Source of the DNA: Tetraselmis striata | Lineage: Eukaryota; Chlorophyta; Chlorodendrophyceae; Chlorodendrales; Chlorodendraceae | Length of the DNA stretch: 64,000 nucleotides | Direction: 5' to 3' | NCBI GenBank assembly: GCA_006384855.1 | Contig: VCJN01002435.1 | Location: forward strand, 62,001-126,000 | In this document: one piece after another, positions 2,868 to 60,810 of the stretch | Position numbering within the stretch: position 1 is the first letter of the stretch | How the letters are laid out: each line of letters begins with the position of its first letter | Notes under the pieces: model-generated | Database searches by the model: none | Told to the model about the DNA's origin: nothing | What the model saw: the letters and a program-made list of their open reading frames with translations, nothing else | Position numbers and translations under genes: made by a program

Positions 2868-5800
2868 TTTGCTAGGTACGGGCGGTCCGCGGAGCGAGTG
2901 GGGAGCGTGGTGTAGACCGGAAGGCGTGCCGGGTGAGGTCGCGTTGAAGGCACAAGAGGCGCAATCAGACGAGGCGGGGCATCCGCAGATCTTGCAGGTT
3001 GTGTTGATGTTGTTGAGGTGGAACGGCAGGTGGCGCTCAGGTTTGCGCGGGTGGTGTAACAACTCGCATTCCGACAGCTCGGCGCGGCGTAACACCGGGG
3101 CTCGTACGAGTACCGGAAACGCCCGCGCCGCATGACAGATTTTGCCCTTACCTTTGGGATGCGCCCTCTCTGGCCCCGGCGCAGCAAAGGGCCAAAGGGG
3201 ACGCATCACGACGGGATGGGAGAAGTATTGCGCCGTGAAGTACGGCCGGGCGAGCAATATGGTGGTGAAGACGGCTTGGAAAGCAAGTCGGCGGGCAGGA
3301 TGCACATGTATGCAGGCGGTTGTCTCGAGCAAGGTTGCACCTGCAACATTTTCTCAGGGCGCCGCCGCGCGTGTTACGAGCAAGAAGGACAGCGGTACGG
3401 GGCAAAGGCAAGTTGAAGCCCGCCCGGGCCTCAGTACGCGGACGGTGTCGCGGTTGAAGGTACGGATCGCCACGGGCGCATAGCCAGTAGACGGCACACG
3501 GGCGAGCGAGGAACAAAGGAACGTGAGGCCATGGGGTGAGACGGTGAACCTCGTAGTGGGCGGGGTAGCGGCTGGCTCCGGTGTGGGTGGCCAGTCGACG
3601 GCGACCATTACCGTCAGCGCTAGAAGGGAATTCAACAGCGAGGCGGGTGCCGCTGCTGCGCCGGCGTTCATCTTCACCGGCGTTCACCGGGTGCACATCA
3701 TCCGCCGTTGCGCACAATCTCACCGTGAGAAGCTAGCATGGTCGCCACGAGATGCTTGGCGCGTCTAGCAATGGATAAGCTGCTCCGACGGGCAGCTCAT
3801 GTAGCGGGCGGGGTCGCGGTTGGCTCTTGCCGACGGGCATCTCGACGGGCATCTCGGCCGCTGCATAGTGGCGGGCGCCAGAGCCCGGGACTTAAAGGCG
3901 GGGCGCGGGCTTTCGGGGGCGGAGAGGACGGGCATGGTAGCGACCCAGGGGCCAGGAGACATGAGCCGGAGTTCCCGGAGCGAGGGAGTCGCAGCCATGC
4001 AGCTGGAGGCGTCGGCTAGCAGCCATCTCGGTCTGACCATGGACGGGCGGCTACGGCGACAAGGCGCGCTGCGGAGGCGAGCAGCGCGAGGGAGAGCATG
4101 ACCGGCCTGCCGACCACGGAGCGACGACACGCGGACGGGGGAGGGGGGCGGTACCCGCGAGACCCCCTTGGGGATCCTACCGCAAGAGCTCAAGCGGCCG
4201 AGATGGAGGCAACATCGGCGGACCGCGACCGAGGCGGCCGGCAGACCGCCACAGCCGGCGCGGTTGGGGCGATTAGCGTCGCGACCTGCGGGATGTGTTC
4301 AGCGATGGCGGGCGGGTACAGTCATAACGCAACACGACGACCGAAGATTGCGCGGCGCGCCAATACTTTACCGACGTAAATGAAAACCTAAATGGGCGGG
4401 GCGAGTGTTGTATTCGTAATCCTCGTACTTCCAATTAGGCTACTAAGAATTGTTAGTGTGTTTTAGGTGCCATATGTCGCTCAAAACAGAGGGGGGGGGG
4501 GGATTTTGTAGCTGGGCAAAGTTTGGTAGCTAGTACTTTCCGCTTTGCTTACCGGCTCCAACCAACCGCCGTACCGTACGCACCGCACAACCCTCGCCAG
4601 CACTGCCGCCGCCGCGCTAGGCCGGCATGCTGCTGTGGCCCCGAGCGCAAATACCTATCCGTCCATAACCACTCCTACCTCACGTCGCCAGCCTTCGGCT
4701 TGGGTAGCTGACACCATGTCGGTATCCAACAGGCACACCGTGAAGGGGGAGGTGAAGTGGGACGGCAGGGATTTTCCGGGTTTTCCGATAAGCCCGTGAT
4801 CTACCCCCCAGAGCAGTATTGGCTAGAGGCATGTACCGTGCGCAACAAGCTATAGAGTATGCAGTGAACGACCTGGACCCTAGCCTATCCTTTGAGCTCG
4901 CTGAACACATTGTAGTGGTCGTCGTGGAGTATGAGCTGTTCAGCTCGCCATCCTCGGGCGATAAGAGGCGGCATGTGACCGGCGAGTCCGGTGGCAGCCG
5001 CATGCTCCAAGACAACCTAACGTGTGGGATTCAATGGAAGAGGTGCCCACTTGGTCTTTCTTCGAGTTAGCCTGGTGGGCACACGCCAGATAGAGGGGGG
5101 AGGAGCAGCCATAGAACACTACTGTTGTATAATCGTGTGCTTTGTGCTCTCAATGCTGCCCTCATGCATTGATATGCACACCTACGTGTGTGGCAGTTGT
5201 CCCGCCCCTACACAATGTATGGACAATTGCAGCACCTTTCCAATTGACATTGATGTTGATAGTACTTAACACAGTACATCAGCCAGCTATAAAACTTATG
5301 GACGAGGGGCGGGTCAGATAGGAGGGGGGGGGGGGGGGGGGGTACCTTACACACATTAACAATTCTGACTGGCCTTAGCGGTAGTCGCTCGTATCGGCGA
5401 CTACCCCTAGTTATCCGAAAATATCATACATAGCTACTTATCACGTAATGGAAAGAGGCGGGGTTTGAAACGAAAGAGCATGGCCGGAAGCTTGAGCTGT
5501 GATTACCCGATATTTGTTCTCTACTATGGATACATATGGCATGCCCTAAGAGCAACTCAGTCTGAGTGGGCGGTAGAGAGCAGCATGCTAGCACGTTGTA
5601 ATCAATTTCAATTTCAATTTGCCGGGCTCCCGTCTCCTCGCGCTCGCTTTCCTCGCCCGTTCTCACGGGGCGGCTGAGGGTTTCCCGGGTTTTCCGAACG
5701 GGTCGGCCGCAGGGCGCCACCACTCCGTTGTATTAGGCCGGGATTCCAGTGATTCACAGGTGGAACACATACGGTCGGGAGGTACGCCATATCTTCTGCG

Positions 5801-17354: not shown

Positions 17355-18926
17355 AGGTTGACTGAGCTCACTTGAGGGGCTGCGTCATGGCCCACCGGGC
17401 TCTATAATGCCGCGACAATTGCCCCCCCTATCCGGCCCACCACGGTGCCTCCGACCTCCAAGGGGCGAAGGGGGGGGGGGGGGGGGGGGGGGGGGGATGC
17501 GCGCACCATCCACACGGTGCTGGGCTCGCCCTTGCCCGTCAGTGGCGCGCAGCGCACGGTGAACATGCCGTTCTTGTTGCCGAAGGCGACGTCGGTGAGG
17601 TAGCGGTCGCCCACCATCACCAGCTTCCCGGCGCCCACCCTGCCCATCAGCACACCGCGGCACGTCGCATCATATCACATCCTATCCCATCCCATCCCAT
17701 CCCATCCCAGTAGACGATATTTACCTCGCCACACCACGATGCATGGCATCACCCCTAATCACATTGTCTCGCACTTACGACATCCCACCATATCACATGC
17801 CACCGTATCATATCATATCACATCACACCATGCCACGCCACCTCGCAACTTGTCCCGCCACATCACAACGCATGGCATCACAATGCATCAGGCCTCCTGC
17901 GACATTACATCACATCATGTCCCTTCTATCCTAGGGCATTGCGACACACCATGCCCCGCCACATCACAACGCATGGCATCACAATGCATCACGCCTCCTG
18001 CGACATTACATCACATCATGTCCCTTCTATCCTAGGGCATTGCGACACACCATGCCCCGCCGCATCACAACTTGCCACACCAGACGATATCACGCCACAC
18101 CACAACGCAAAACATCACAACGCATCACATCATATCAAACCATGCCACGCTGCCTTGCCGCTCATGGTATCATACGACACCCCATGCTGTGGCAGGGCAG
18201 CACGGGGCGCCGGTCTGGGGGAGAGGGGGCAATGAGGGGCGCACCCAAAGTGCTTCTCCAGGTCCTCCGCCCCACCCGCAGGTTTCTTCTCGCGGTGGCG
18301 CAGCACGTCGATGCCCAGCGCCGCCTCGATGGCCTCCGCCTCTTTGCCTGTTACTCCGCGCCGCCTCAGCCGGGGACCCGCCAGACGAGAGAGAGGGGAG
18401 AGTACACGGGCAAAGAAGTGGGGGATGGGGGGGGGGGGGTTGGGCGTTTGGTTTGTAGGGAGGGCATTACCTTCGGGGTCAAACTGCTGCAGCCCCGCCG
18501 AATTGCTGTACAGCGCAACCGCACCCCCGAAGACCGCCTTGCATTCCTCCAGCGACGCGCTCAGTGGCGGGTGCACCTGCAGAGGCGCCCCAAAGCGGCG
18601 GCGGCTGGTGAGTCGCGCGGCGTCCCCCGCTACCCACCGCCTCCTTCTCGGGGCAAGCCCCTGCCCTGCCACGGAGCAGCTGCATGCTGGATTCTGTAGA
18701 CAGCTGACAGGCGTCTGCGCGGAGGGCGGAGTGAGAGCGGATGTCTCCTCGGAGGTCGCTCACATTTGGTTTTTGTCCTGGCGTGGGTATAGATGGTAGC
18801 AATGCAGTGGAGTCCGCCCCTTGACCCACAATCAGCAGCAGGCCGGCGCAGAGATTGGGAGACAGAGGCAGCGGCAGAGACAGAAGGGGGGGGGGGGGGG
18901 GGGGTGCAACAGAATGGCGCGCTTCT

Positions 18927-19479: not shown

Positions 19480-20403
19480 GAGGACCTGCACGTGGCCAGC
19501 GGCAGCGGTGAGGGAGGGCGCAAAAGGGGGGGGGGGGGGGGGGTGTATTCCGGTATGGTGCAGCTTTACCGGGCGCCGGCGAGATCGCCGGCCGACAGAG
19601 CCCGGGGAGGTGGCCTGCGGAAGGTGCGAGCGGTCAGCGGTCAGCCTTCCCTGCCGCACGTAGGGCAGTCGCCAGGGGGTCGGGCGATGGGGTGACGTGG
19701 GGTTGCTGTGGGCGCCTACGTGCGGGTGGGGGTCGCAGGGCGTGCGTTGCGCGGCGAGAGCCGGTCGGCCAGCTGCGGGCCCGCCCACGAGCATGCCGCG
19801 CCGCGGACACCGGCGGTATGGAGATTATCGGCTGCGCACGGTGGTGGGGCCGACGGCTCAAGTAGCGATGCGTGGGGACTACTCAGCAAACGGGGAAGTC
19901 TTTGCATACTCCACTCGCTGCCTGCTGACAGACGAGCGATGCTGCTGACGAGATGGACGCCGTGCTCAACATTCGCCTTGCTCACTACCGTCGTAGAGAC
20001 GATGCAAGGGTTTCATCAGGGGTCAAAAACCCCTGGTTTCACTGGTGCCAGTCAACTACCCGTAAGTGCCCGGGAAAACAACTACGGGTACCCGCGGGCA
20101 CTCGCGGGCCTGCCGGGCTGTTTCCGCTGATGGCAGGACGATGACAGACTCGGCGCGCGCGGGCGGCTGGTTGATGCAGGAGGCTCCGAAACCATCAACA
20201 GCTTCCACTTCAACCGAAACCATCAATCCGCGCGCGGAACGCGCCACCCGCGCCGACGACGGGTACGGGTACCAGTACGATGACAACCGAGCCGCGCTAC
20301 GTACTGATGATAGCGACTATATGCTGTTCGATTTTCTGGATTTTCTTCTGGACTTCTGTTCGGATTTCTTGAATTTTGCAACTAGCACATATGTAATCAT
20401 CAT
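19480..20403. other. Intergenic region upstream of the PGP phosphatase gene
   Basis: Contains the 5' flank of the minus-strand PGP phosphatase gene, a G run near 19526-19542, a partial copy of dispersed repeat family 2 (19987-20052), and a dispersed segment at about 20335-20400 that recurs at about 29432-29490. No supported gene. Confidence 0.5.
19987..20052 (+). repeat. Dispersed repeat family 2, partial copy
   Basis: Shares GTAGAGACGATGCAAGGGTT and CACTGGTGCCAGTC with the longer copies at 16364-16606 and 54500-54748. It has an internal insertion that forms a small inverted repeat (GGGGTC, spacer, GACCCC type). Confidence 0.5.
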
Positions 20404-20525
20404 TTACCCAAGGAGGCACGATTTGCCAAAGAATGTCAGCTCGCTTACATTTGAGGCTAAGACGAGAACCACAGGCTTGGCCTGGGTGTCTCCTAGCGCA
20501 GAAAGATGGCTGTGGGTGGGTGGGT

Positions 20526-20699
20526 GCGCGAGCCGGTTGAGGCGAGCGCAAAGCAGAGAGTGCCGGTGCCCGAGGGCGGATCCCTCAGGTCGTGGTGCTG
20601 GTGCGGGCCGGCAGGCCCCAGTCCGTGCGCCGACCGCGGGGATCGTGCGCAGTACAACATTGCTAAGTACTGTAAACCTCTAGATGACTACATCTGACC
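20526..20699 (-). repeat. Direct repeat A2 of the YR element
   Basis: About 174 bp near-identical to 22083-22256. The shared block runs from TGCGCGAGCCGGTTGAGGCG to GATGACTACATCTGACCA on the plus strand. High identity implies recent insertion or gene conversion. Confidence 0.85.
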
Positions 20700-20701
20700 A
20701 T

Positions 20702-22038
20702 TTACCCAAGGAGGCACGATTTGCCAGAGAAGAAAGCCAAAGGCTTGCACAGGTAGCGAAGTGTAGCGGCCGGACGGGGACGAGCTAGCAGCAGAACCGC
20801 AGCATAGCAGCTCGCTGCCGAGGCCGCGCCTTTGCGCAGCCTGTGCGATGCCCACGTGACACTGGGGGGCGGCTGGGCGCCCGCCGCCAGGCAGGCGTCC
20901 CGCAGCCAGTCAGTGGGAGTGGCTGAAAAGGACCAAGCGGCGGAAGGCTCCAGCGGGGAGACGCTCCAAAACTTGGTCGGCAGGCCGGCGCCTGAGAGAG
21001 GGCGGCAAGAAGGCGGGGCTCGGCCGCCATCGACACCGTCCAGGGCGCTCCAGAGCCCGGGCGCGGGCGCCGTGCGCGGGACGGGCGGCCCAGGTACTGT
21101 ACACGGTACTGCAGTGACGGCCGTACCGCCAGGGATTGGCCGCAGGCCTTAGCATAACAGCGAAGATACAGGTACTTGTCGTACGCTGTCAGACCCCGCT
21201 GCTCCGCGAGGCTGCGGGCGGCGGTGTCGTCGGTCAGAATCCACAAGCGAGGCTCGTCGCCGTCGCGTGGGGGTGGCTCCAGACCGGAAGGGGGGACTTG
21301 ACCGAAGTAGGCGAAGTCGACGTACTCGAGCTCGGTGTCGAGTGCGTCCAGCTCAGCAGGAAGGGGCTCTCGCGCTCCTTGCTCACCACCCTCGGGCGCA
21401 GGCGCGCCCGCGGGAATGGCTGGCTGGGTGCCTTTGGGAGGAGGCGGTTGCACGGGAGGGGCCAGTCGAGCGAGTAAGGCGGCCGTAGCCGCCTCGAACT
21501 GCTCGGCCAGCCGCTTCTCCAGGGCTATTGCTTGGGCCGTCAGGCGTTTTTCCAATTCGGTGTCGTCGTCGGTCAGAATCCACAAGCGAGGCTCGTCGCC
21601 GTCGCGTGGGGGTGGCTCCAGACCGCAAGGGGGGACTTGACCGAAGTAGACGAAGTCGACGTACTCGAGCTCGGTGTCGAGTGCGTCCAGCTCAGCAGGA
21701 AGGGGCTCTTGCGCTCCTTGCTCACCACCCTCGGGCGCAGGCGCGCCCGCGGGAATGGCTGGCTGGGTGCCCTTGGGAGCAGGCGATAGCACGGGAGGGG
21801 CCAGGCGAGCGAGTAAGGCGGCCGTAGCCGCCTCGAACTGCTCGGCCAGCCGCTTCTCCAGGGCTTCCGCTTGGGCCGTCAGGCGTTTCTCCAATTCCGC
21901 GATGGATGCCGCAGTGGCGCCGCCCGGGGCGTCGTCGACTAGGGCGTCTTCCGGTACAGGACGAAGGGGCATCCTGCTGTCGCGGGGTGGGGAAGGTGTA
22001 GCGTCTCGGGAGGCTGAGGCTCGGGTCCGAGTCGGCAT
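20702..22038 (-). pseudogene. Gag-like/coiled-coil ORF fused by frameshift to a tyrosine-recombinase C-terminus
   Basis: ATG at 22038 (MPTRTRASASR) opens a long frame to 20785. Its body contains a tandem duplication of a 113-residue unit (339-bp period, copies starting near 21231 and 21570): coiled coil LEKRLAEQFEAATAALLARL, a Pro/Ala/Gly linker, DTELEYVDF, and EPRLWILTDD. After GLTAYDKYLYLRCYAKACGQ the likely coding frame shifts. Another frame then reads DWLRDACLAAGAQ and WASHRLRKGAASAAS (HRLRKG at 20845-20828), the H-x-L-R box of tyrosine recombinases, and stops at 20702 in repeat B1. The recombinase Tyr region is not recognisable and the N-terminal catalytic Arg is absent, so the enzyme is not functional. 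Probably an internal-deletion product. Confidence 0.6.
21231..21905 (-). repeat. Tandem duplication, 339-bp period, inside the element ORF
   Basis: Two in-frame copies of a 113-codon unit starting near 21231 and 21570, differing at scattered positions. It keeps the reading frame, so it arose while, or regardless of whether, the ORF was coding. Confidence 0.8.
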
Positions 22039-22082
22039 AGAGTAAGCTGACACTCTGCTCGACTGCTAGAGTCGAGACTGCT

Positions 22083-22256
22083 TGCGCGAGCCGGTTGAGG
22101 CGAGCGCAAAGCAGAGAGTGCCGGTGCCCGAGGGCGGATCCCTCAGGTCGTGGTGCTGGTGCGGGCCGGCAGGCCCCAGTCCGTGCGCCGACCGCGGGGA
22201 TCGTGCGCAGTACAACATTGCTAAGTACTGTAAACCTCTAGATGACTACATCTGAC
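22083..22256 (-). repeat. Direct repeat A1 of the YR element
   Basis: Second copy of the 174-bp repeat at 20526-20699. The sequences immediately outside the two copies differ, which fixes the boundaries. Confidence 0.85.
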
Positions 22257-25094
22257 CATATGCTGATCGATGCGGGCCGGGGCAGAATCTACCCTAGTAC
22301 TCTAGTACTGGTTTTCGCGAGGCGTGCAGCCGGGCAGGGGGCGAGGGTCCGCCATATGCTCGTATGCTGTCCAGTCAGAGGGCGCGTTCGCGAAATTGCA
22401 CGGCGGATGCGGGTGCGGCGCGTCATCGCAGTCGCCCCGAAACCATCGCATCTGCTGCTCTACGACGACGACGGTAATCGTCCGCCGCCGCGCGCTTGCG
22501 CGCGCCCGGCAGCAATGGCATGGTACACCACTCCACATATTAAGCCCTATGCCCCTTAAACTTATGCCCCTTAAACTCGCCGAATATCCGAGTTTACGAA
22601 TAGCAGGGCAGCTGAATCTACGGTGGATGACCTAAAACCCTGGAATATTTCAATGGAATATCTTCAAATTGCATCATCACAGGGTTTACTCAAACCCTGT
22701 TACCCTAACAACTGTCCTACACGAGTGGTTTTGGGGCGTGTATCTAAATACTAACCCCCCTTTGACACATCAGAGGTTGGGGTGCGCCAAAGACGTACCA
22801 CTGCGTGCACGCATGACGCATAGATAGAGCATTGCATGGTGGCATGGCCGTGGATGGGTGAGAAAGAATGTTAGCAAAGGGGCTAGGGTGGTGTTGGGTG
22901 GGGTGCTGGGGCCATGTAGGCGCGAGCCACTGTGTATGTTATACCATTGCCGCCCACTGTGGTACAACATGGGGGTGTAACTTCACGACAACTGTGTCGT
23001 AAGCCTGACACCTATCGGTGGGACAGTGTGTTGGGTGTACTTGCATACGAGCCGCTCACACTAGGTGCATGCCCCCTTTTAGCGATGCACCTGGAGTCTT
23101 GACACAAGCGCCACGCTTGACGTCCCATTTCACAGTTCACATCATTGGTTCAAGCACAATAGGAACATTTCAGTGCACTCCATTTCTGTGCCACCTGGGC
23201 CACAACGTGCTATACGGGAATGTAATCATGCACTGCTATTATATATAAAAGGTTAGCTTCCCCTCGCGGCAAGCCGGCAAGGAGGCCACGAGCAGCCTCT
23301 CATGCTTGCGCATGCAACAATTATTACATCAGCAAAGAATTCGCCATGATTTTGCTCCGAAACTAGTGAAGTCGATACATAGGGCTTGTCCCATACCCTG
23401 AATGACCTAGTTTCAGTGCTGTACACTCAAAGTTGATAGTTGCTGGCACATCAATGGCGATGTGGTATGAGTATACGGCGGTAAATGTGGCCCATGGGTA
23501 TGTATAGGCATGACGAGTCCCGCAACTCGCGATGGTTTTGTTGCGCCATGCCGCCATCGCCTCACGCAGTGCTGTGGCACGATTGAAAGTGTTCACGGCA
23601 ATGGCTGCGACGCGGGTCTAACGCGCTATGTCACAGCATTGTCCCCAAGCCGTGCGATTTACCCGTGGAAAGATGCACGCACGCGCGCACGGCCTCAATG
23701 TAGTGACCACTTCTGGGCATGTGGGTAGTTGAATTCGCAATCCCCATACTTACGTGGAGTGGCGCATAATCCTCATAGTCGTCGTCGTATCTTATAGTAG
23801 TCTATATTCTTTATTCTGAATATATTACTACTGATGCTGGGCATCTACTACTGGCGTACTGATAACTACTGAGTACGCGGGTACCTGCTTACGACTTACC
23901 GGACATTATTTTCAACCAATGTCCATGGCGGGTAGTAAGGCACTAAGGCAATAATGCCTTATTATAATTTCTTTTTTTTCGCGCGTACTCCACGCCCAGG
24001 ACGTGTATACAGGACAACGATTCCTGGCAACTACAGTTGAACAGTAAAACCCTGCAGCTTACAAATATATGTCTAGCGGTACCGATACCTACTTGCCGCT
24101 TGCTGCGTACGTGACGTGATGTTGGTAAACGGACTTTGTCGAGCTAGTGCCAAGCTTACTGATGGCGAACATGCATTAGCGCATATAATTATTGCCAAAT
24201 TGGCATAATGTATTATCCATGTGTGTATGTAATAATATAATCAATTATGCTGTCGACCGTTGTTGTTATCCGTTGGATGGATGTCGAGAATCAATTAGTC
24301 GTTACGTTGGTAAGCTGGTTAGACATGCAAACGAGGTCAGCTAGACGACGCGCGATTATATCAATACTTATGCACATACATGCTGTTTTCCTCAAAGTAT
24401 GGGCCTATAATGAAAAGCAGTCTAGCGCCAACGAGGGGGGGGGGGGGGTCAGAGACGAAATAAGGCATTCGTTACACAATAAGACGAAGCGCTGCTGGCT
24501 CCCTGGATCTCGTCATGGAATGATGACCCTAGCGTAATGTGAAAAACCGAAAACCCCGCGACATTATAACGCGCGCTGCTAATTCTCGTTATCTCGAGCT
24601 CCGCGACATGTACATCGTAGTCATCATAGTTACCGTATCAGATAGCCATTGACACGATACCAGTATACACCATTCATTCCACATCATAAGCGTTAACACA
24701 TAGGAATCTTGACAGATGCCGTGAGTTGCCAACTCGCGTCAGCTGCTGGCGACTGGTAGTTAGCCACTTTGCACGGCAACCGACAGCATGGGCGCCTAAA
24801 AAAACTTGAGCTGAGGGTGATGGGGCGTTGGGCAGGCGGCTAGGCGGTCATAAGCAGGCCAAAAAGTTGCGGATCTTTTGGGGCCACAACAGCATTGAAG
24901 ATTATGGCACTGTGGCAACCTCGCGGGCGTTGCTTACAGCATGTGCAGGCTCGCAGCCCAGTCCCCCCCCCCCCCCCCCCCCGCCCCCGCGGCCCACAAC
25001 TCAAGGGCCTCAGTTAGGGCCTACAGGAAGCCCTAGCAGTTTGGAGGCTGCGACCGCGGCTGCTCCCGGAAGTCCGCACATGCTACGCCGGCGC
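22257..25094. other. AT-richer intergenic region, no supported gene
   Basis: Short overlapping frames only. A tandem CCCCTTAAACT motif lies near 22550-22577 and a G run near 24436-24448. The likely poly(A) motif of the UNC-50 gene lies at its right end. I see no gene, RNA gene or mobile-element coding domain. Confidence 0.5.
24934..24938 (-). terminator. TGTAA poly(A) motif downstream of the UNC-50 gene
   Basis: TTACA on the plus strand (TGTAA on the coding strand), about 157 nt past the UNC-50 stop. TGTAA is the usual green-algal polyadenylation motif. Confidence 0.45.
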
Positions 25095-28972: not shown

Positions 28973-29647
28973 TCTGGCTGAAGGTCCGTGCGCTGCCCGC
29001 GCTAGAGGCGCCGCCCCCGCTGCTCGCTGAGCCCCTTATTGTCGCGCCGCACAGGGGAACCGCCCGCCCCAATAAAAACGGGCCGTCACCGCGGAAAACA
29101 GCGCAGAACTCCCCGACTTCCGGTCCAACCCCGCGCGACCTCACGCCGCCTTACACTCCGGCACTGCACTGCCGCGAAGTCCGACGGCTCTGAGAAAGGG
29201 TACTGATATATCTGGCAAGGAGTGAGGTGCCGGGGGGGCACGGATCTTTTACGGCGGCTTGAGTGAAGTATGTGATAAGGGTGACATCAACTAGCGCGTA
29301 GGTGGCAAAAACTTGAAATGGCGGGGCCGGCCCCCGCCGCGTTTTGCCACCCTTGCAGTAGGAGTTGTAGCGTTATTTTTCAAAATATTGTCGCTATGCT
29401 CTGCAACAGCCTACAATAATAATGCTTCTGGATTTCCTTCTGGATTTCTGTGTGGATTTCTTGCATGTTGCGTCTAGCACATGTAATCATTATAATAATG
29501 CTGGGTATACGCGCCATGATGAGATAATGTTACACACACAGGGTGCGATATTAATATGTAGGATTATAGGGGACTGGGACTAAAAGATTCGAGCGTAAAA
29601 GGTACAAGCCGGGGCGCTGTAGTCTCTAAATTGTCATCCCGTTTTGG
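28973..29647. other. 5' flank of the UNC-50 gene, no supported gene
   Basis: A GC-rich upstream flank changes to AT-richer text near 29350. It contains the dispersed segment at 29432-29490 that is related to the flank of the 20.4-kb element. Confidence 0.5.
29432..29490 (+). repeat. Dispersed segment related to the flank of the 20.4-kb element
   Basis: Shares TTCTGGATTT, a TTCTGGA(C/T)TTCTG block, CGGATTTCTTG/TGGATTTCTTG and CTAGCACAT(AT)GTAATCAT with about 20335-20400. In the first locus the repeat stops at the element terminus; here the sequence continues uninterrupted. Confidence 0.55.
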
Positions 29648-30082
29648 GCAGCTAGACAGCGTAGATTTTGCATCAAAATGTACCAGGTCGGCTGGGACCA
29701 AAAGATCCACGGGGTCGGCTGCCTGGGACCAAAAGATCCACGACTGGTACGGGGCCGCCAGACCGGATGGTGTCCGGAAAGGCGCCGCGCGTCCCGAGCC
29801 CCCGCCGGTGTTGTAAATTACATGCCACCAGCGATCACGTGGCTCATCAGGATAGTACATTCCGCTATGCTGCTCTCGGCCCCTCATCACGGCTAAGATG
29901 CTGGGAAAGCCTGACTAATTGCTGCCGCACCTGGGCTTATCGGACACGGAACACCCCTGTGGGATGACGTATATCAAAATGATATTCACTCCCCACCTCA
30001 GGTGCTTTCACAACTAACCAGACTATCCTTAATCCAAATCGAGCAGCATCCGGAAACGTACCACAAAAGCGAATAATTGTGG

Positions 30083-30293
30083 AGACAATATAGTCGGGTG
30101 CCTTCCAACAACTGAAGGTGCCCCCGGTCCCCGGCCGCCCTTTATACTCGGATATAAAGGGTGCCGCCGGACCGGCGCCGGCCGGTCCTGGCGTACCGGG
30201 CCGGCAGGGTCGTCACTTAACCCTGACGGCGCTGCGAAAACCAGCAAGGTTTCCTAGGTCGTTCCTCCCAAGGAAACCCTACAATTTTCGCAG
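30083..30293 (-). repeat. Direct repeat A2 of the 29.6-33.2 kb element
   Basis: Runs from AGACAATATAG to CAAGGAAACCCTACA on the plus strand and is highly similar to 33048-33243, with a few small indels (for example GGATATAAAGG versus GGATAAAGG). Very GC-rich centre. Confidence 0.85.
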
Positions 30294-30462
30294 CTAGACA
30301 GAGTAGATTTTGCATCAAAATGTACGGGGTCGGCTGGGACCAAAAGATCCAACAGATGAAAGAACAGTGGCCGGCGGTCTGGCGGGGCCCGTACACGGAC
30401 ATATGTGAGCCAAATTATACAGGGAATTATATTCAATCAGGAACAAACACAGGAACGGGGCA

Positions 30463-31459
30463 TCACCAGCACGGTATAAAATTGCCACTTAGAACGGGAC
30501 TAAGTTGCGTCCCGGGAGGTATCCGAGTCCGTGTCGGATGGATAATAACTGTCAGCGTCACTATCGTAGTATCGTCCGGTTCGTCCTCTTCGGCAAGTGA
30601 CATGATCGCACGCGACACGGACAGAACGTGCTCCTCATCCAGCCCCATATAGCGGAGCTGAGCAGAGGATGACTTCCAGCCACCATGCTGGCCCCATGTA
30701 GTGAGCGGGCTGTCTGCGTTAGCGGCGGCGGAAGCACCTACTATGTGCCTTATTGACAAAGCCAGAGATGAACAGCCAGTCATCAAGATAGCAGAGCATC
30801 ATGCTGCCCCTAATGCCCCGCCAGTGTCGCACCAGAACTCCCATGACTTTAGAAAAGAAGCGGGGGGCATCAAACAGCCCAAAGCATAGAACTCACCGAG
30901 TGTAGAATTTTCCTCTCCATTCAGACCCGCTGTAAGGAGCAGCTGAGTCATGGAGGCGGACATGGTAATAGCCCTGAGTCAGATCTATGCTGGTCAGCAT
31001 GTCGCCGGGATTCACCAGGTCTGACAACTTAGAAAACGACTCCATGTTGAAGGGAGTCTAAACCTAGTGTTTGTTGACATGACGCTGATCGCAGTTCAGC
31101 CTGAGTCCACCATGGGGTTTAGGAACCACACCCAAAGGGTTCAGCACCACAGGACGCATAGGTTCTTCTCTGATATGGCCCAACGGCAACAGCAGAGCGA
31201 TCTGCCCATCAATAAAATCGGGGTGCTGCAGCGCGGAAGGGTGATTTGGCAGATGACTGGGTGGTGCGGGACCATCAGCCCAGTTCATACGGTAGCCATG
31301 CCTGACCCAATCTCTGACCTGACTGTCTCTGACTGATTCAGTGAAGCTGTCCCAAAATTGCCAGCCTTTACGGATAACACCGGCCGATTCCACAAGAGAA
31401 TTGACGTCCAAAGCCGGCTCATGAGGAAGCTCAAAATTAGCTGACGTTAAAACCGTCAC
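30463..31459 (-). pseudogene. Reverse transcriptase, YLDD type, frameshifted
   Basis: Minus-strand frames give ordered RT motifs: PLGVVPKPHGGLRLNCDQR (about 31140-31075), then after a frameshift SIDLTQGYYHVRL (motif A Asp, about 30990-30950). An in-frame stop follows near 30895, then FGLFDAPRFFSKVM and CYLDDWLFIS (motif C double Asp, YLDDWLF at 30790-30770). A further shift leads to QLRYMGLDEEHVLSVSRAIM, which resembles the segment after the palm. The YLDDW form is typical of DIRS-like RTs. Catalytic Asp residues are present but the gene is broken at least three times. Confidence 0.75.
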
Positions 31460-31906
31460 AAAATGCCAACGCCACAGACAACATCATAGTGGTCAGCAAG
31501 CAGCCTGGATGCCTGCTGCATGAATCAAACAGTGAGTTTGAACTCGAAATCGTCCGAAACTGAAAATAACAGTATTTTCAAATTAAATATCGCTCCGACA
31601 CAACGGGAGATATGAATCGTCACACAGGGTGTGCCGCCCTTTACACGAATGCATCGCCGGCCAACTTATGGAAAGTTGCCGAGACAATTGCCAGGGGCAG
31701 CACATAGTCGCAGGGACATCATATGTATTACATACGAGGTATCTCTCGGAGATATACAGGTGACTCTCACTGAGGAGATCAGAGCTGCTATGACACAAGC
31801 ATGAGCTCAGCTCCCGGAGGAGGGCTAACAGTCGCCCGGAGGCCTAACTGCAGCTACACGAAACACCATCACTGGCCAGGCCAGGAGGATTGCAGACTCC
31901 ACAGCT

Positions 31907-32957
31907 TCATCGACGTGCACTCGGGCAGTCCCTACTGAAGTGTCCCTTCCTCTGGCAGCGATAACATGTATGTGATGTCTGCAGCAGAAGACCGACCAGG
32001 AGGAGACTTCTCCTCGCGACGGCCGCCCTCCCTCCGGTTGTCGCTCCCACGGTGAAAAGACTCGGGCTCGCGAGAAGAGGAAGAAGGCTTCGCGCGCGAA
32101 GAAGAAGAGGAATATTTCTTGGCCTTGACCTTCTCAATCGCCTTCTTCAGCTCCTTGTAGTCTGTTGAGCCCTTCTCGCCGAGAGGGTCCACTGCATCGA
32201 ACTCCTTGGCGACCTCCGCGCCGTACTCGTGCTCCACATGCAGTTTCTTGCCACGCTTGTTAATCCGAAGAGCCACAGTGGTACACAATGCCAGTGCCGC
32301 GGTAATCGTCTTGAACATCTCCGCAGACGAAGCTGGCGAGGAAGCAGGAAGATCGGTGCCGTCCCCCACCAAGTCACGCAGGGGCTCCTCCGCCGGTGCC
32401 AAAAGGTCTACATCTGGTCGTCTAGGTCGCGTTGAAGAATACGAGCATCAGCGGTATGGCGGCGGTGAACCTTAGTTACCATCTTTGTCCAGCCAGCCAT
32501 CCTCGGGTGCGTTGATGGAGCGAGACGGTGCTTCCACAGCCGGAGGTTGAGATGATCTCTTGCCCTTGCGGTCGTAGTTGGCGTCCCCCTCCGCAACGCA
32601 TTTCGAAGCTGAAGCCGAAGTGGACGGACCGCTCGACGACGCGACTGCCTGCTTTAGCTCAGAAACCTCTCGTTCGATACGGAGTAGAGCAGCAGAAGTA
32701 TCAGCTACTGCATGTTTAGCGGCGACGAGAGAGGGAGATTCAGCTACCCCGTGTGCAGGTAGAGTGTCGCCACCTAGGACAGTGAGATGATTTTTGCGCG
32801 TAACGAGTTGTTCACGAAGAGCTTTACAGGAGTCCAGTAACTCGTTCCAAACGAGTTCAAACTTGTCTACTGCTAAAACAGAGACGAGAAAGCATGGCGA
32901 CAGCACCACGAGCGAGACAAAGAGCCACGCCCAAGACGTACTTGCGGAGCGAGCCAT
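31907..32957 (-). pseudogene. Gag-like polyprotein with CCHC zinc knuckle, frameshifted
   Basis: ATG at 32957 (MARSASTSWAWLF, unusually hydrophobic start) opens a frame to 32472 with a helical region (SAALLRIEREVSELKQAV) and basic Ser-rich text. The next frame (to 31932) has KLHVEHEYGAEVAKEF, KELKKAIEKVKAKK and an Arg/Ser-rich domain. A third frame gives CYRCQRKGHFSRDC, a C-X2-C-X4-H-X4-C nucleic-acid-binding knuckle, stopping at 31907. At least two frameshifts separate these parts. It lies directly upstream of the RT in transcript order. Confidence 0.65.
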
Positions 32958-33047
32958 GGTGAGTGCCGGGATCAAACACACTACAGAACGCGGAAGAAAT
33001 TTGAATTTTTGTAGTCGAAGACGAAACGAAAATGTACCAGTCGTAGA

Positions 33048-33243
33048 AGACAATATAGTGGGGTGCCTTCCAACAACTGAAGGTGCCCCCGGTCCCCGGC
33101 CGCCCTTTATACTCGGATAAAGGGTGCCGCCGGACCGGCGCCGGCCGGTCCTGGCGTACCGGGCCGGCAGGGTCGTCACTTAACCCTGACGGCGCTGCGA
33201 AAACCAGGGTTTCCTAGGTCGTTCCTCCCAAGGAAACCCTACA
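33048..33243 (-). repeat. Direct repeat A1 of the 29.6-33.2 kb element
   Basis: Partner of 30083-30293 in the same orientation. It lies just upstream of the Gag-like start at 32957 on the minus strand, so it probably carries the element promoter. Confidence 0.85.
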
Positions 33244-33679
33244 GTTTTTATTTTGGTACAAAATACACGCAGTAACCCTGTGCGGGTTTTAGGGTTTCGA
33301 TCAGTTTGCATAAACTAGCATGAGGCACATGCGCAGGTGCATGCTCACGGCGGGGCGGGGTACTCCCAAATACAGTCGTGCGGCCATTTGTCTGCTTCCG
33401 TTGCCTAGTCCAACCGATCTTGTATCGGGGGGGGGGGGGGGGGGGGGGCTCGCATGCAGCCCCACGCGTCCCGAAGGCAGGCATGCAGCCACGGTCAGCA
33501 AGGTAGTAGTAGAGTGCAACTGGACCGGCGATTCGTTTGCACGGGACGATGAGGCACTTTCGAACTCCCCGTCTAACGCGCAAGCAGCCAAACCCATACG
33601 CTATAATTGGGCATTGCCTTCCTGCCGAAGAAGGCCACAATGCATATATATGCCGCCGCATATGGTCGTCGGCTTCAAA

Positions 33680-45227: not shown

Positions 45228-46390
45228 TCAGCTAGCTGCGGATGCCTGGGCCGCATTGACTGCTGCGTGCATGTCATTCATGGCTGCCGGTCTGCCCAGC
45301 ACCTCCCGCTCCACCGTCTCGCTGCCCAGCGTCATGCTCTTCGCCGCCTCCGCCCCATGCCTCTGCACGGCCACCGCGCCCGCATGCTGCTCCATGGCCT
45401 CCTTCACCGTCTCCAGCAGGCCCAGTCCCGCTGCGAGGGCTCTGTTGGCGGGGGCTGCGGTTATGCTGGCAATCGCAGCACATGCCTCTGCATGCGCTGC
45501 CTAGGTGAGCCTGCATGGCCTTCTGGATGTCGGCCAGCAGCCCCCGCCGCCCGGCCTCCTCCTGGTTGGCAGAGTTTCCCTCTGTGATGCGGCTCACGGC
45601 CCAACACCACACTCCTTTGGCGGTGAAGCCACCGATATATCGACCAATATGACGCCGCGTGGCCTGCTGGATGTCGGCCAGCAGCCCCAGCCGCCCGGCC
45701 TCCTCCTGGTTGGCCGCGGTGCCCGCTGTAATGCAATACATTGCCATGCAGGCCAAGCGACGGACCGGAGAATCACAAGGGAGTCGGTGCATGGCCTTCT
45801 GGACGTCGGCCAGCAGCCCCAGCCGCCCGGCCTCCTCCTGGTTCACTTGGCAGAGTTTCCCTCTGTGATGCGGCTCACGGCCCAACACCACACTCCTTTG
45901 GCGGTGAAGCCACCGATATATCGACCAGTATGACGCCGCGTGGCCTTCTGGATTTCTGTCAGCATGCCCAGTCGCCCGGCCTGCACCTGGTTGGCGTCCA
46001 CACCGTGTGTGATGCGTCCGATTGCCATAGATGCCTCGACTTGGCCACTGTATTTGCCGGCATGCTGCTGCATGCTCTTCTGGATGTCTGCCAGCACACC
46101 CAGCCGCCCTGCCTGGGCTTGGTTGGCACGGGCGGCGGATGTGGTGCATTGGATTGCGTCGTATGCCTTGAGCTGCATGTTGGCGTTGTCGGCATGTTGG
46201 CGCATCGCCTTCTGTATGCCAGCATGCCCAGCCTCCCCGCCTTGTCTTGGTTGGGGCAACTGGCGTCGGTGATATGTGCTATCGCCGTGCATGCCTTGCT
46301 CTGAAGTCTTACGTGGCCAACGTGTTGGGACATGATCTGTTGGATGACTGACAGAAGACCCAGCCGCCCCGCCTCCTGCCAATTGGCGAA
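45228..46390 (-). pseudogene. Armadillo-like repeat protein, frameshifted
   Basis: About eight consecutive repeats of roughly 44 residues on the minus strand, each with the pattern NQ..AGRLG.L..IQ..M..H, then a second helix such as LQSKACTAIAHITD. Examples: AGRLGLLSVIQQIM, AGRLGVLADIQKSMQQHAGK, AGRLGLLADVQKAMHR, and a diverged last unit LAAGLGLLETVKEAMEQHAG that ends at the stop 45230-45228. The two-helix repeat resembles the armadillo/HEAT type used for protein-protein contact. The frame breaks at least three times: a 4-nt deletion near 46220, a 4-nt insertion near 45853 and a larger deletion near 45500. A stop precedes the first unit, but a good acceptor (TTGGCAG, near 46378) suggests an internal exon. 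Two units are almost identical (about 45563-45660 and 45847-45945), showing recent duplication. It may be a pseudogene or carry assembly errors. Confidence 0.6.
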
Positions 46391-50125: not shown

Positions 50126-51211
50126 TCATTCGTGCTCACCTTCGCGGCCACGCCCACGGCCGCCACCACGCCCACGTCCGCGCCCGCGCCCTGCAATCGC
50201 TACCGCTACTCGAACAGTGGCAGTTGCTTTGGCGCTGCTGCTAACTGTCGCCTCGAAGACGCGACGCTCGTAGCCCTTCATAAGGTCCCCAAATATCGCA
50301 GAACCCATATGCTCAGAAGCAGGCTGAAAGTGCTCGGCTCGCATCACGTCCAGAACACCTTGGTCACCGTGCACACGCTTGACCTCATTAAGCCTTCGTA
50401 AGAAGGCCACACGAAAGCGAAACGCCTTGTCAGTGGCCTCGGCGTGGTTCCGAGCTCTCGCGAGGTAGGGGGTGAAGTCCTAGCTTGCAGCAGGGACGTA
50501 GGGCAGCAGCTCGTCGAGTGCCACGAAAAGTGCGGCCATGTGGGCGCCGAAACACGACATCCATAGATACTCCTCCTGTGCCGGCAGACGCCGGTTATCC
50601 TGCTTGAGGCACTCGTTCGTTAGGTCGGTGCTCAAGGGGAAGAGTCCAAGCACTCCGCTGACCGGTCGAACGGCCTCGTAACCAGACTGTGCTCGTTGCA
50701 GTAGCTCCGGCACTGCGAGGTAGTCATCCTCGTCACTCACGGATTTTGCTCCGACACGGCTGCTCTGGGCTAGCTCTAGCAAGTCGGGGCGCTCTGCGGC
50801 TCCCCCGCTGCCTGTCAGCTGTCCCGCAATGCGCTGCCCGGAACCGGAACCATGTGCTCCTTCTCCATCAATAACGCTCTCACGAGCCGTCAATTGGGCC
50901 AACGCTGCGGTAAGCTCGCGCAGCAATATAGACTGGGCCTTCACGTATGCTTGAAGCGATTCGAGCGTCGGCTCAAAGACGGGTTCTTCTCCATCTGAAA
51001 TAGTAACGCGCGGACGTACGGATGAGAATTTCACACACGGGTAGTGAGCCGGGTGTGGTCTTGGTCCACAGCACTGAGAAGCCGATGTACGGCACTTTGC
51101 GTGCCGCCCGCGGCGAAAACATCGGTCACCCACGTACCCATCAAATCTTATAAAACCATCATCGTAGTCCGCTAGATTGGACCACTCTCTCTCCTCCTGC
51201 CCGCACAACAC
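50126..51211 (-). pseudogene. Gag-like protein with RG-rich C-terminus, one in-frame TAG
   Basis: One minus frame runs from 51211 to 50126, about 361 codons, broken only by a TAG at 50482-50480. The N-terminus has a Cys cluster (GDRCFRRGRHAKCRTSASQC, ending CCG). Next come FEPTLESLQAYVKAQSILLR and ELTAALAQLTARE (coiled coil), an acidic/Ser linker, and a folded-looking segment (EEYLWMSCFGAHMAALFVAL, then DELLPYV). After the stop the same frame continues DFTPYLARARNHAEATDKAF, RVAFLRRLNEVKRVHGDQGV and a GRGRGRGRGG tail. RG tails bind nucleic acid in many Gag-like proteins. The TAG may be a decay mutation or a programmed readthrough site. Confidence 0.55.
51066..51211. repeat. Direct repeat R at the divergence point
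   Basis: Shares TGTACGGCACTTTGCG, CCCATCAAATCTTATAAAAC and CTCCTGCCCGCACAAC with 54130-54284. It holds the Gag-like start region, so it may carry promoter elements for both divergent genes. Confidence 0.8.
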
Positions 51212-51289
51212 TATCGTCTCGCGGTTTCGGACCGTGCAGAGTGCTCATGCCCTCGGAAGCGGTACTAAACCTTCTATCTCCCGCTCTCG

Positions 51290-54120
51290 ATGCCGCTATA
51301 TGACCAGTTCAAGCCGAGGACTTATTTTCTCTATTCCCCACGTGGCTCACTGCCCGACGACCCCTTTGCTCTGTCAGGCGACGGCTCACTCACCGCCCCC
51401 AAAATGATCGACGCCGGGAAGGCGGCGGGGGTCGGAGGCGTCGCGACGGCGGCTACGGCGCAAGACTCCATCGCGGCGGCGCGTCATGAGGCGCAAGACA
51501 CAAGAATGAAGCAACTCATCTAGGAGCAGCTCTCCGGGTTTTTCACCACTCAAGAGACTCCTATGCCGCCGGCTGCCACCGGTGAAGAGGACGCCATTAT
51601 TCCGGGCGGGAACGAGTCCCGCGCCGGTGGTCAAGACCGGAACGCCCGTACGCCAATCGCCCCTTCGAACGAACTACATTTCTTTGATTGGAAAACCGCC
51701 CTCGCTAGGGCTCTGTCCGGTTTCGAGAACGGGATGCGTCCCGATAGGCTGCGGCGCCCGGGGCTCTTTCCCATCGCTCAAGGCCATCGTCCACATACCA
51801 CAACATGGAAGCCATCGACGACAGCCATCGGTTCCGCCGCGTCTACATCCGCAAGTATTACTGGGATACGCACGCAGATGCACCACGGCGACACCTTCGC
51901 TTTCGACGCACGTCGTTTGGGAGCGCTACCTCCGCCCCGGTACTGAGCTCACCGAGCTACAGGAGCCCTACAAGGACCGCGTCTACGACGCCAACATCGC
52001 TAGCGCCGCGAAAACCACCGCCCGTCAGCACTTCGTCGTCTACGAGGTCCTCCGGCGCAACGACTGCGAGCGAGACGGTGGCGGCGGCAGCCGCAATAAA
52101 CCTTCCAAACTACGCGCCCGGAGCGCGAGGCGGTGGCGCCACGAACCACCTTCGCGAGGGACGTCACCAAGGACTCTGGTTCGGGCAAGGCGAAAAATGA
52201 GGCCCATGCGGTCGACGGTGCCGAATGATGGAGTGCTCCGCCATGCCGACCCCATGCATATGATTGCGTTTCGAGCACACGCCTCCGGACGCGCCTTCCA
52301 AGCAACGCTGCAATGGAGTCGTCGTTATGAGCGGGACTCCCTCACCGCTGACCCTCCTACGCGAGCCGTCACCCTCCCTATACCCTCGCCGGGGTCAACC
52401 CCTCCGGCTCTACTCTGTTATTCCACATCGGGGATCTACACCGACTCCCTGTTTCTGCCCCCCCCCCCCCCCCCCCCCCCCCCGCGATCTGCCGCGCTAA
52501 TCCTCTTTGTCTGCCGGCCGCGCAGCGGCATCTCGCGGACAGCTAGACGAGCCCGGTATACTCACGCGACGCTCGCTATACGAGGTCAGCGGGTACAGTG
52601 CCCTACCCTCCTTGCATCATCTTGGTGCTGCACCTGGCTATGTTGTCACCACCCGGCGAGCACCACCCTCGGCAGCGGCGAACCCGACAGCGGCGTACGG
52701 AGCGTTCCGGCGCGTCCGCCACTCTACGAAAACACCTACCTACTTTATCGCCGACGTTGAAGCGAAGGCCCCCTGGAGCGAGCTCATGCGAGGCAACATC
52801 GATGCCCTCTACGGCACGGACGATGACTGGAACGCCAAGGTGCTCGACATTCTGACTGATTCGCTCACGGCTAGCATCTAATCCAACTACGAAGGCAAGA
52901 TTCGCCTCTTTGCCGAAGTCGGCATCGACGAAGAAGGAATGTCCCCCCCATGGACTTCACCGACCCTACCTGCGTCCGCTACCTCACCTGTATTGCGGAG
53001 CGCGGCACCATCGGCGCCGGCTCTCTGCAGCCCTACCTCTCAGCCATCAACAAACACCTTCTTGCGTCATACCGGTCGGGATGCCGCCCCGGCCACCGGC
53101 CCAGCCATCGGCGACATGAAGCGCGCGCTTCAAATCCGTCAACTCAAGACTATCGCGGAGCTGCGGCGCGCCCCCCTTCCAAGCGACGTCATCACCGACG
53201 TCCTCGACGACCTCGCTACCCTTCGTCCAATGACCACCCCCGGCTACGGCACCATCCTCTGCGAGGGCGCTGCGGCGGTTTGTTCAACATTTATGTTTTA
53301 CTCCCCTGGTGAGTCCAGCGCGTCTCTTGCCAACTCTGCGACATTCCCGTGGCGGACACTCACAACATCACCCTCTTCGTCAATAACCGCGAGAAGGGGG
53401 GACATAGCAAGCGTCGAGACGGGTTCAAGCCCATACTCCAAAACCCTGCCACCACCGTGCCCGCGTGGACAGCCCTTCTCCGCCGCTTCGTCTCCTACCG
53501 CGACGCGCGGCGTTCCGGGCAGTCCCCACCGCCAAGCAATCTCACCGATTCCGAGCGCTCCTTGGCGACAGAGGTACCCCTCCCCTTACGCGGAACGCCT
53601 CCACCCTCGGCGACTGGCTGAAGCTGGCCGTCGGCCGCATCAATCGAGCCCCCCCCCCCCCCCCCCCCCCCCCAGAAGGTTTCGTGTGGACCTGGCACTC
53701 CTTACGTAAGGGCGATGCGTCCGGCGCAAACGCAACTACATGCGTGCCCCCTAGACAATATCCGCCATTGGGGCGGTTAAGTCCGCAATTATGCAGTAAT
53801 CAACGACTACATCGACCCGACAACGCTTCCTACCCGCGCCGCCACACTTCTGTTCGGCTGCCCCCCCCCCCCCCCCCCCCCCCCTATTCGCAGCTTTCTC
53901 GATAGCGCCCCCGCTCCGTCGGACGCCGCCCGGCCCCCTCCGCAGTCCAAGACTGAAGTAGCTAATCTTCTCTGCCTACCTTCCCCTTTGAAATGTTTAG
54001 AGCTTTGTTCTTGGAGATCCCATTTTTCCCCTCCTTGCAGCTAGGGTATGCGGGTGTTGACACCAGCGCTGCCCGCGATCTCTGTGCCACTCCAGTGATC
54101 GACTACCGGCCGCAGTCCTA
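51290..54120 (+). pseudogene. Tyrosine recombinase of a DIRS/Crypton-like element, frameshifted
   Basis: Coding text moves among all three plus frames. The N-terminal part reads MPLYDQFKPRTYFLYSPRGS and later MEAIDDSHRFRRVYIRKYYW and VWERYLRPGTELTELQEPYK. The core-binding domain follows (NYEGKIRLFAEVGIDEEGMS, then AERGTIGAGSLQPYLSAINK) and MKRALQIRQLKTIAELRRAP. The catalytic part has GFVWTWHSLRKG (H-x-x-R box), NIRHWGG (second His/Trp box) and VINDYIDPTTLP (nucleophile Tyr). The position expected to hold the first catalytic Arg reads SPGESSAS, so that residue seems lost. Stops, frameshifts and three poly-C expansions (near 52458, 53648 and 53861) break it. It ends LCATPVIDYRPQS at a TAG near 54120. 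Confidence 0.7.
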
Positions 54121-54129
54121 GTGCTTCAG

Positions 54130-54284
54130 CACTGGGAAGCCAATAGATGTACGGCACTTTGCGAAACTGCCGCGGAGAAAACAACGGTCACCCCCGTACC
54201 CATCAAATCTTATAAAACCATCATCGTTTGCTAGACTGGACCACTCTCTTAGTTTTGTTATGGCCTCCTGCCCGCACAACTCGC
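54130..54284. repeat. Direct repeat R' after the recombinase gene
   Basis: Second copy of 51066-51211, with a 14-nt insertion near its right end (TAGTTTTGTTATGG). Its left limit lies within ten bases of the recombinase stop codon. Confidence 0.8.
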
Positions 54285-60085: not shown

Positions 60086-60189
60086 AGCGACCCCCGCTCC
60101 CCTCGTAGTCCCCGCCCAGTTGCCCCTGGCCACAGTTCACGCCCAGCTCGCCGCCGCACGTAGTACATACGCATTCCCGCGGATGAGGC

Positions 60190-60338
60190 GTGTATGTGAT
60201 GCCGCATAGCCTCGTCTATGTAATATCATGGAGACCCCCCCCCCCCCTCCCCATGTGTCACACTCAACTGACACAAGCTTGCGACGTGGGTGGATCTCGA
60301 TCCAAAGCCGGCGAATACACGCTGCCACAAGAGAAGCG

Positions 60339-60374
<36 letters not shown>

Positions 60375-60810
60375 CGCTGCATATTTAGTTTATATTATAA
60401 ACACATAATATGAAGCGTGCATGTGAAGCCGGACAGCCCCGTCTATGTAATATCATGGAGACCCCCCCCCCCCCCCCCCCCCTCCCCCCATGTGTCATAC
60501 TCAGTAGGCACAAACTTGCGACATGCGCGGATCTCGATCCAAAGCCAGCGAATACACGCTGCCACAAAAGAAGCATATATACATATATATATGCTTATTA
60601 TATAAAAGAAGCATATATACATATATATACATATATATACATATTATATAATGTCAAGCGGGTATGTGACGCTGCATAGCCCCGTTTTTGTAATATCGTG
60701 GAGACCCCCCCCCCCCCCCCCCCCATGTGCCATTACCAACTGACACAAGTGCGACATGCGCGGATCTCGATCCAAAGCCAGCGAATACACGCTGCCACAA
60801 GAGAACGAAG
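60190..60810. repeat. Three-unit tandem repeat at the iPGM 3' end
   Basis: Units start near 60190, 60416 and 60656 (periods about 227 and 243 bp). Each has TGTAATATCATGGAGACC (TATCGTGG in the third), a long C run, CGGATCTCGATCCAAAGCC or close variants, and GCGAATACACGCTGCCACAA; the first two units end in TATATACATATATA tracts. Each unit carries a TGTAA motif (60219-60223, 60446-60450, 60689-60693) on the iPGM strand. Confidence 0.85.
60219..60223 (+). terminator. Candidate TGTAA poly(A) motif of iPGM
   Basis: 134 nt past the stop, in the first tandem unit. It is duplicated in the next two units, so alternative 3' ends are possible. Confidence 0.45.

Follow-up and report, generated by a model that had tools for sequence, protein, structure and literature searches.

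The window, as we call the entire 64,000-nucleotide stretch of Tetraselmis striata DNA analysed here, contains a segment of less than 2 kb that is framed by two pairs of direct repeats, and this raises the question of what kind of element it is and how an element so short could have moved. We conclude that it very probably belongs to a PAT/TOC-type (DIRS-order) family of tyrosine-recombinase (YR) retrotransposons, as a non-autonomous member with internal deletions. An earlier note had proposed a miniature non-autonomous YR element mobilised in trans. We looked for outcomes that would speak against such an element and found none, so that this part of the proposal is supported; that it is mobilised in trans by its relatives is something we infer.

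The edges of the element were set by comparing 20 copies (the one in the window and 19 fetched from elsewhere in the genome), and they lie at 20404-22259, which gives a length of 1,856 bp with the minus strand as the sense strand. On this strand the order is A1 - ORF - B1A2 - B2, exactly as had been described before; the size of 1.85 kb also stood, although the compared copies make the element 3 bp longer. The outer repeat at the 5′ end, A1 (22083-22259, minus), and its inner copy A2 (20525-20701, minus), located by direct-repeat comparison, are identical at 177 of 177 positions (100%), so the direct A repeats are present but measure 177 bp rather than the 174 bp first reported. B1 (20702-20731, minus), the inner copy of the 3′ end repeat, abuts A2, and the two together form a B1A2 segment that resembles a circle junction. 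B2 (20404-20433, minus), defined by repeat comparison and by the edges of the compared copies, is separated from A2 by a unique stretch of 91 bp (20434-20524, minus). The second repeat pair, B1/B2, was likewise borne out: 20401-20433 and 20699-20731 agree at 32 of 33 positions, and the parts within the element, B1 (20731-20702) and B2 (20433-20404), have one mismatch in 30. Rfam and tRNA scans of the window gave no matches.

The interior is a mosaic. A 417-aa frame (20785-22038, minus) begins like the gag of the longer, autonomous-type relatives described below, then crosses a duplicated gag part, a remnant of the end of the reverse transcriptase (RT) and the start of the YR, and finally YR sequence that is out of frame. 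The duplication, which was absent from the earlier description, is a tandem one of 339 bp (21226-21897, minus), whose two copies are 96% identical by repeat comparison and both align to a single stretch of the autonomous-type element at locus L029; it is visible in the maps of all 19 fetched full-length minis, as we call copies of the short form. A C-terminal remnant of a tyrosine recombinase is recognised at 20807-21015 (minus) from 81% identity to L029, from the frames and from comparison with the recombinase of another relative, L013. The recombinase H-x-L-R box without an RT that had been noted before is indeed there, as HRLRKG at 20845-20828 (minus), in a frame that differs from that of the 417-aa ORF; to judge by these alignments it is a recombinase remnant, and the YR part bearing the catalytic Tyr is deleted. 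RT sequence is absent from the window copy save for a short 3′ piece, beyond which we found no RT remnant in this copy.

We then asked how widely this arrangement occurs in the genome, for which 224 Mb in 2,903 contigs were searched. An exact 27-nt pattern spanning the B1/A2 junction occurs 204 times genome-wide, whereas the same pattern written backwards, as a control, occurs 0 times, which confirms that the split repeats are not a product of chance. Versions of this junction extended to 36 nt number 84 exact matches of the mini type (CGA) and 100 exact matches of the autonomous type (CTG), counts that may be inflated because near-duplicate contigs exist: the tubulin loci L041 (contig C826) and L042 (C1961), for example, have 23 differences in 3,498 positions. 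For an alpha-tubulin frame of this genome the closest match in the PDB is chain 6u42_2, from Chlamydomonas, and this one protein suggests a green alga. The genome-wide search for further copies suggested in the earlier note thus found many, and the A and B ends lie at the expected places in the compared copies, with no A1 or A2 outside the B repeats. A similarity search that took 174 bp from the left end as its query scored 40 of 651 candidates, and 19 of the 20 copy regions fetched carry the mini with both ends, at lengths of 1,844-1,860 bp and with 97.3-98.7% identity to the window copy. In the twentieth region, L013, a mini truncated in A1 meets a longer, autonomous-type relative head-to-head, with a short palindrome at the joint (L013:6100-6140). 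Both elements are cut at the same A point, which reflects either a genuine inverted fusion or a fold-back of the assembly. Outer ends number 275 and B1A2 junctions 251 (two different patterns, each with at most two mismatches); as these figures leave room for few solo A-B units, a large class of such units was rejected.

Among the copies selected by their left end, A1, B1, A2 and B2 vary by 0.17-0.65% and the 44 bp following A1 by 0.23%, while most interior parts vary by 1.3-2.9%. A less selected sample was taken from the list of 84 mini-type junctions, from which four copies were fetched and one (L050) was dropped, its outer left end being unrecognised; L053, of 1,536 bp, also comes from this list. 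In the three copies retained, A1 differs by 2.0-3.0% and the interior by 3.5-5.0%, and A2 differs by 1.6-2.7% outside the query and by 2.0-3.5% in the query part, so that the ends are about 1.4-2.3-fold more conserved than the interior. Strong conservation of the ends was thus discarded as a finding, since beyond this factor it is largely an effect of picking copies by left-end similarity.

The same split direct repeats, in the order A1-ORF-B1A2-B2, are found in longer elements. L013 contains one with gag, RT-RNase H and YR frames, and six further loci were fetched (L029-L034). Three of these six (L029, L030 and L031) hold elements of 4,908 bp in which gag, RT and YR each have a long frame; L029 and L030 differ by 0.22%. 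Of the five autonomous-type elements read, two have a gag frame that is short when counted from the usual start (83 aa in L032 and 69 aa in L034), and L033 is a tandem with a broken RT frame. With an RT-RNase H query, 77 loci of 4,163 candidates were scored, at 90-100% identity; the matched main stretch is free of stops in 59 of the 77 and contains one in 18. Given the long frames and the stop-free RT stretches, some of the relatives look intact.

We ran Pfam on the proteins of two relatives, L013 and L029. Matches above cut-off were obtained for RVT_1 (E-values of 1.5e-12 and 1.1e-11, respectively) and for Phage_int_SAM_1 (1.2e-5 and 4.3e-5). RNase H (best E 0.00039) and Phage_integrase matched below the Pfam cut-off, as did the methyltransferase family Dam, with E-values of 0.059 in L013 and 0.013 in L029 that do not reach its curated cut-off; with the Dam match goes an NPPW motif that can be recognised by eye. 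The gag proteins of L013 and L029 gave no Pfam match of any kind. A phmmer comparison aligns the C-terminal part of the L013 recombinase with Cre (0.00046), and by eye the YR of the relatives has H-S-L-R and a downstream Tyr. This YR is co-oriented with the RT, and B1A2 is located after it.

Two of the longer elements are unusual in structure. The autonomous-type copy in L032 (L032:1084-1200) has a partial A-end repeat 83 bp before the B1A2 junction, possibly the result of a slip or a template switch. In L033, two family members share a single A1-end/B2 junction at about position 5256 of the minus strand, as if one member had entered, or had integrated as, a circle-type junction. This tandem is consistent with a circular DNA intermediate carrying a B-A junction, and the sites C555:96471 and 96773 have a similar spacing.

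The derivation of the mini becomes apparent when it is aligned with the reverse complement of L029, counting the mini in its sense direction from window position 22259 as 1. Positions 1-695 of the mini correspond to L029 864-1559, positions 702-1108 to 1227-1630, positions 1134-1246 to approximately 4185-4363, positions 1245-1453 to 5057-5264, and positions 1462-1856 to 5377-5771. Compared with L029, the mini therefore has one duplication and three internal deletions, with about 2.6, 0.7 and 0.1 kb lost. The two are 94-95% identical in the A repeats and 92% identical in the B1A2-B2 end, while interior stretches have 69-91% identity. Because the mini differs from L029 by 5-8% at the ends and by 9-31% inside, none of the sampled relatives is its immediate parent. 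The search for a full-length parent thus led to relatives with RT-RNase H, YR and similar ends, but not to the direct source of the mini. The mini itself has the ends of autonomous-type copies, no RT and a truncated YR, as expected of a non-autonomous element, and the common shape of the 19 fetched full-length copies points to descent from one founder.

To see how the element enters its targets, we compared the joints of 25 elements, 20 of them minis and five of the autonomous type; L013, with its right end cut, and the tandem L033 were dropped. All 25 have T directly before the B2 edge, and this T is preceded by A in 18, G in 6 and T in 1. At the right joint, CCA is followed by T in 20 elements, by A in three and by G in two, and AT comes next in 23 of the 25; most copies accordingly end CCAT at A1 before the flank, and a few end CCAA or CCAG. 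AT flanks the element on both sides in 17 of the 25, and the left and right flanking dinucleotides are unequal in eight. The AT that had been noticed at the A1 and B2 edges is real in the window copy, but across the 25 elements it is a preference and no rule, so that the term crossover core overstates it.

We searched for empty counterparts of eight joined insertion sites at once, scoring 40 of 2,521 candidates. Locus L044 is an empty paralog of the L020 site, with 97% identity and the joint intact. Four fetched paralogs of the L028 site are identical to it at the joint, with a 16-bp gap and a few differing bases to the left, and a 79% paralog of the L018 site, found inside L024, reads through the joint. 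L047, a read-through for the L034 site, is too diverged at the joint; for L010, L015, L024 and L027 no empty site was present among the 40 scored candidates, and none was found with the joined flanks of the window copy, the left half of which lies in another repeat with copies ending 1-9 bases either side of the joint. The uninserted L020, L028 and L018 sites, which are paralogs of unproven allelism, are not shorter than the joined flanks and therefore exclude a 2-bp duplication. We accordingly rejected a 2-bp duplication of AT, which would fit 17 of the 25 flank pairs and is at odds with the other eight. The absence of a target-site duplication, which had been expected from the window copy, was thereby upheld on the empty paralogs and on the unequal flank pairs: insertion is precise, without duplication, at AT-rich sites. 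Seven cross-element flank pairs share a stretch of repeat, and among the 25 elements there is no pair with both flanks in common. The other repeat in the left flank of the window copy is dispersed; its end, at 20336-20403, terminates in AATCATCAT, listed copies are 86-91% identical, and it is possibly the tail of a non-LTR element or SINE.

The two A repeats of an element change in concert. On average, A1 and A2 differ at 0.55 columns within one mini versus 1.93 columns between minis, distances that are lowered by the selection of copies resembling the left end of the window copy, and the within-mini sum observed was reached by 1 of 20,000 random re-pairings. A1 and A2 carry matching private changes in L014, in L018 and L024, and in L019, L031 and L034. 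Nine columns separate the mini from the autonomous type in A1 and A2 alike, with the disrupted A2 of L032 as an exception; one more such column, which results from a 1-bp insertion, was left uncounted. The corresponding A1-A2 means for autonomous-type elements are uninformative because the count for L032 (167) is an artefact of the partial repeat in its A2 region. The concerted change fits new ends that are copied from the internal junction, and gene conversion could also make the A repeats within an element identical.

If gene conversion does keep A1 and A2 identical, the mini could move as DNA only, its circle being excised and re-inserted by the recombinase of the relatives in the manner of a Crypton. 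A YR requires DNA alone, the L033 junction could arise by recombination between DNA copies, and shared A mutations are also expected from conversion. However, the 84 exact mini-type junctions demand some replicative step, the RT stretch is free of stops in most of the scored relatives (59 of 77), and B1A2, which is dispensable for cut-and-paste, is found nearly as often as the outer ends (251 versus 275), so we regard movement as DNA only as very improbable. It is also improbable that the gag-like frame supplies the mini with a protein of its own, which would package its own RNA or interfere with the helper. The frame has been kept at 416-418 aa in 13 of the 20 copies and at 446 aa in one, while it is shorter in four and its start string has no exact match in two. 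Against this, the interior is more variable than the ends, and the gag part of the 20 copies has 40 synonymous and 79 non-synonymous variants, a ratio that falls between the two neutral expectations of 663:1794 (all changes) and 290:529 (transitions). These variant counts thus give no sign of coding constraint on the gag fragment, and a functional gag fragment was set aside as unsupported.

An LTR retrotransposon, or another element with a DDE integrase, whose repeats merely resemble split direct repeats would account for the two long direct repeats, and the AT on both sides of 17 elements could be read as its 2-bp duplication. Yet the element ends at B2, outside A2, the relatives encode a YR, the eight unmatched flank pairs do not agree with such a duplication, and a fixed-length target-site duplication of the LTR kind appears neither in the flanks nor in the empty sites. 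The empty paralogs of L020, L028 and L018, whose sequence is complete and would be shorter had there been a 2-bp duplication, contradict this explanation unless they are precise excisions, and we assign it almost no probability. The probability is just as slight that the copies are an immobile satellite or a segmental duplication spread through host recombination; near-duplicate contigs such as those of L041 and L042 may inflate the counts in favour of this idea, but the ends are exact and the flanks differ, no two elements having both in common, and empty sites exist. We therefore consider both the LTR and the satellite readings ruled out by the empty sites, the exact ends and the differing flanks.

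For a non-autonomous member of a PAT/TOC-type family, the following course of events can be proposed. The mini would be transcribed, and its RNA would be packaged and reverse-transcribed by the proteins of the relatives. The missing ends would then be completed from the internal B1A2 segment, so that a circle closed by a B-A junction results. The recombinase of the relatives would finally insert this circle by exchange between its junction, CCA^TTT, and targets resembling A^TAT.

TOC1, a larger non-autonomous element, is a precedent, and the mini is no new kind of element in that short versions of YR retrotransposons are known, namely TOC1 and the SIRE element discussed below. The passages on TOC and Toc3 in PMC4157794 describe PAT elements with split direct repeats in the order A1-B1-A2-B2, with YR and RT in the same direction and with no Gag zinc finger; in the relevant part of PMC8969392, algal PAT-type elements are reported to have no target-site duplications, and a section of PMC3266345 describes PAT-like families in Chlamydomonas and Volvox. 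The family found here resembles TOC and Toc3, as presented in these passages, in its split direct repeats, its co-oriented YR, the absence of a target-site duplication and a gag without a Pfam match, zinc finger included. Unlike TOC and Toc3, the window copy is 1.86 kb long and has neither an RT nor a working YR, and the likeness is one to published descriptions. In Trypanosoma cruzi, SIRE and VIPER illustrate how a short version of the ends of a YR retrotransposon can exist beside full-length copies; according to the passages on them in PMC6681497, SIRE is the A2-B2 region alone, and its mobility was left open there. The mini is likewise a short form beside full-length relatives, but unlike SIRE, as portrayed in that account, it retains the two ends, B1A2 and a constant remnant of the interior, and it inserts precisely.

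Two further groups were considered for the relatives. Kangaroo of Volvox, a green alga, belongs to the PAT group and has split direct repeats in the description given in PMC4157794; its YR is inverted and its internal repeats lie between MT and YR, whereas the YR of the relatives is co-oriented and is followed by B1A2. Ngaro elements are presented in part of PMC8547959 with the order A1-ORFs-B1A2B2 and with RT, RNase H and YR, and the passage on them in PMC4157794 states that a methyltransferase is missing, in contrast to the relatives here with their sub-cut-off Dam match and an NPPW recognised by eye. Because a methyltransferase is missing from Ngaro as described there, PAT is favoured, though unproven. 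The sub-cut-off methyltransferase match and the co-oriented YR appear to fit a Toc3-like element better than Ngaro or Kangaroo.

The proposed completion of ends has its model in DIRS-1, for which a circular intermediate was demonstrated in a mutant strain; the scheme in which an internal region templates the missing ends and the recombinase inserts the circle is treated as not fully proven in the corresponding part of PMC5633606. The mini is a convenient substrate for testing this DIRS-1-type circle model. Both ends and B1A2 survive in an element of 1.86 kb, with 84 exact junctions next to longer relatives of intact appearance, which narrows the candidate cis-acting sequences to a small set and supplies natural pairs of full and empty (paralogous) sites. 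We tentatively raise the possibility, to which we give somewhat less than even chances, that the mini is a long-lived satellite lineage and no casual deletion, having arisen from one founder that had the duplication and the three deletions, with a drifted interior (69-91%), ends that were held (92-95%) and A repeats that every new copy renews jointly, with no exchange of ends with the helpers (nine fixed columns). If so, the asymmetric junctions, with an invariable T on the left and a changing base on the right, would locate the exchange of strands between CCA and TTT, and the chemistry of DIRS-order integration would be readable from sequence.

The window holds a second split-repeat element, unrelated in sequence and of the same architecture, at 29643-33248 (minus). 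Its A repeats (30083-30288 and 33048-33248, minus) are 96.6% identical and its B repeats (29643-29709 and 30285-30351, minus) 93% identical, and it contains a 235-aa frame and, by eye, a short RT-like piece. In a search with 30000-30400, 40 of 677 candidates were scored, the other 39 at 90-94%, and copies of this element also occur in L024 and, partly, in L016. Further tandem or direct repeats lie in the window at 45511-46128, 17854-18071, 60183-60805 and 51069-54249.
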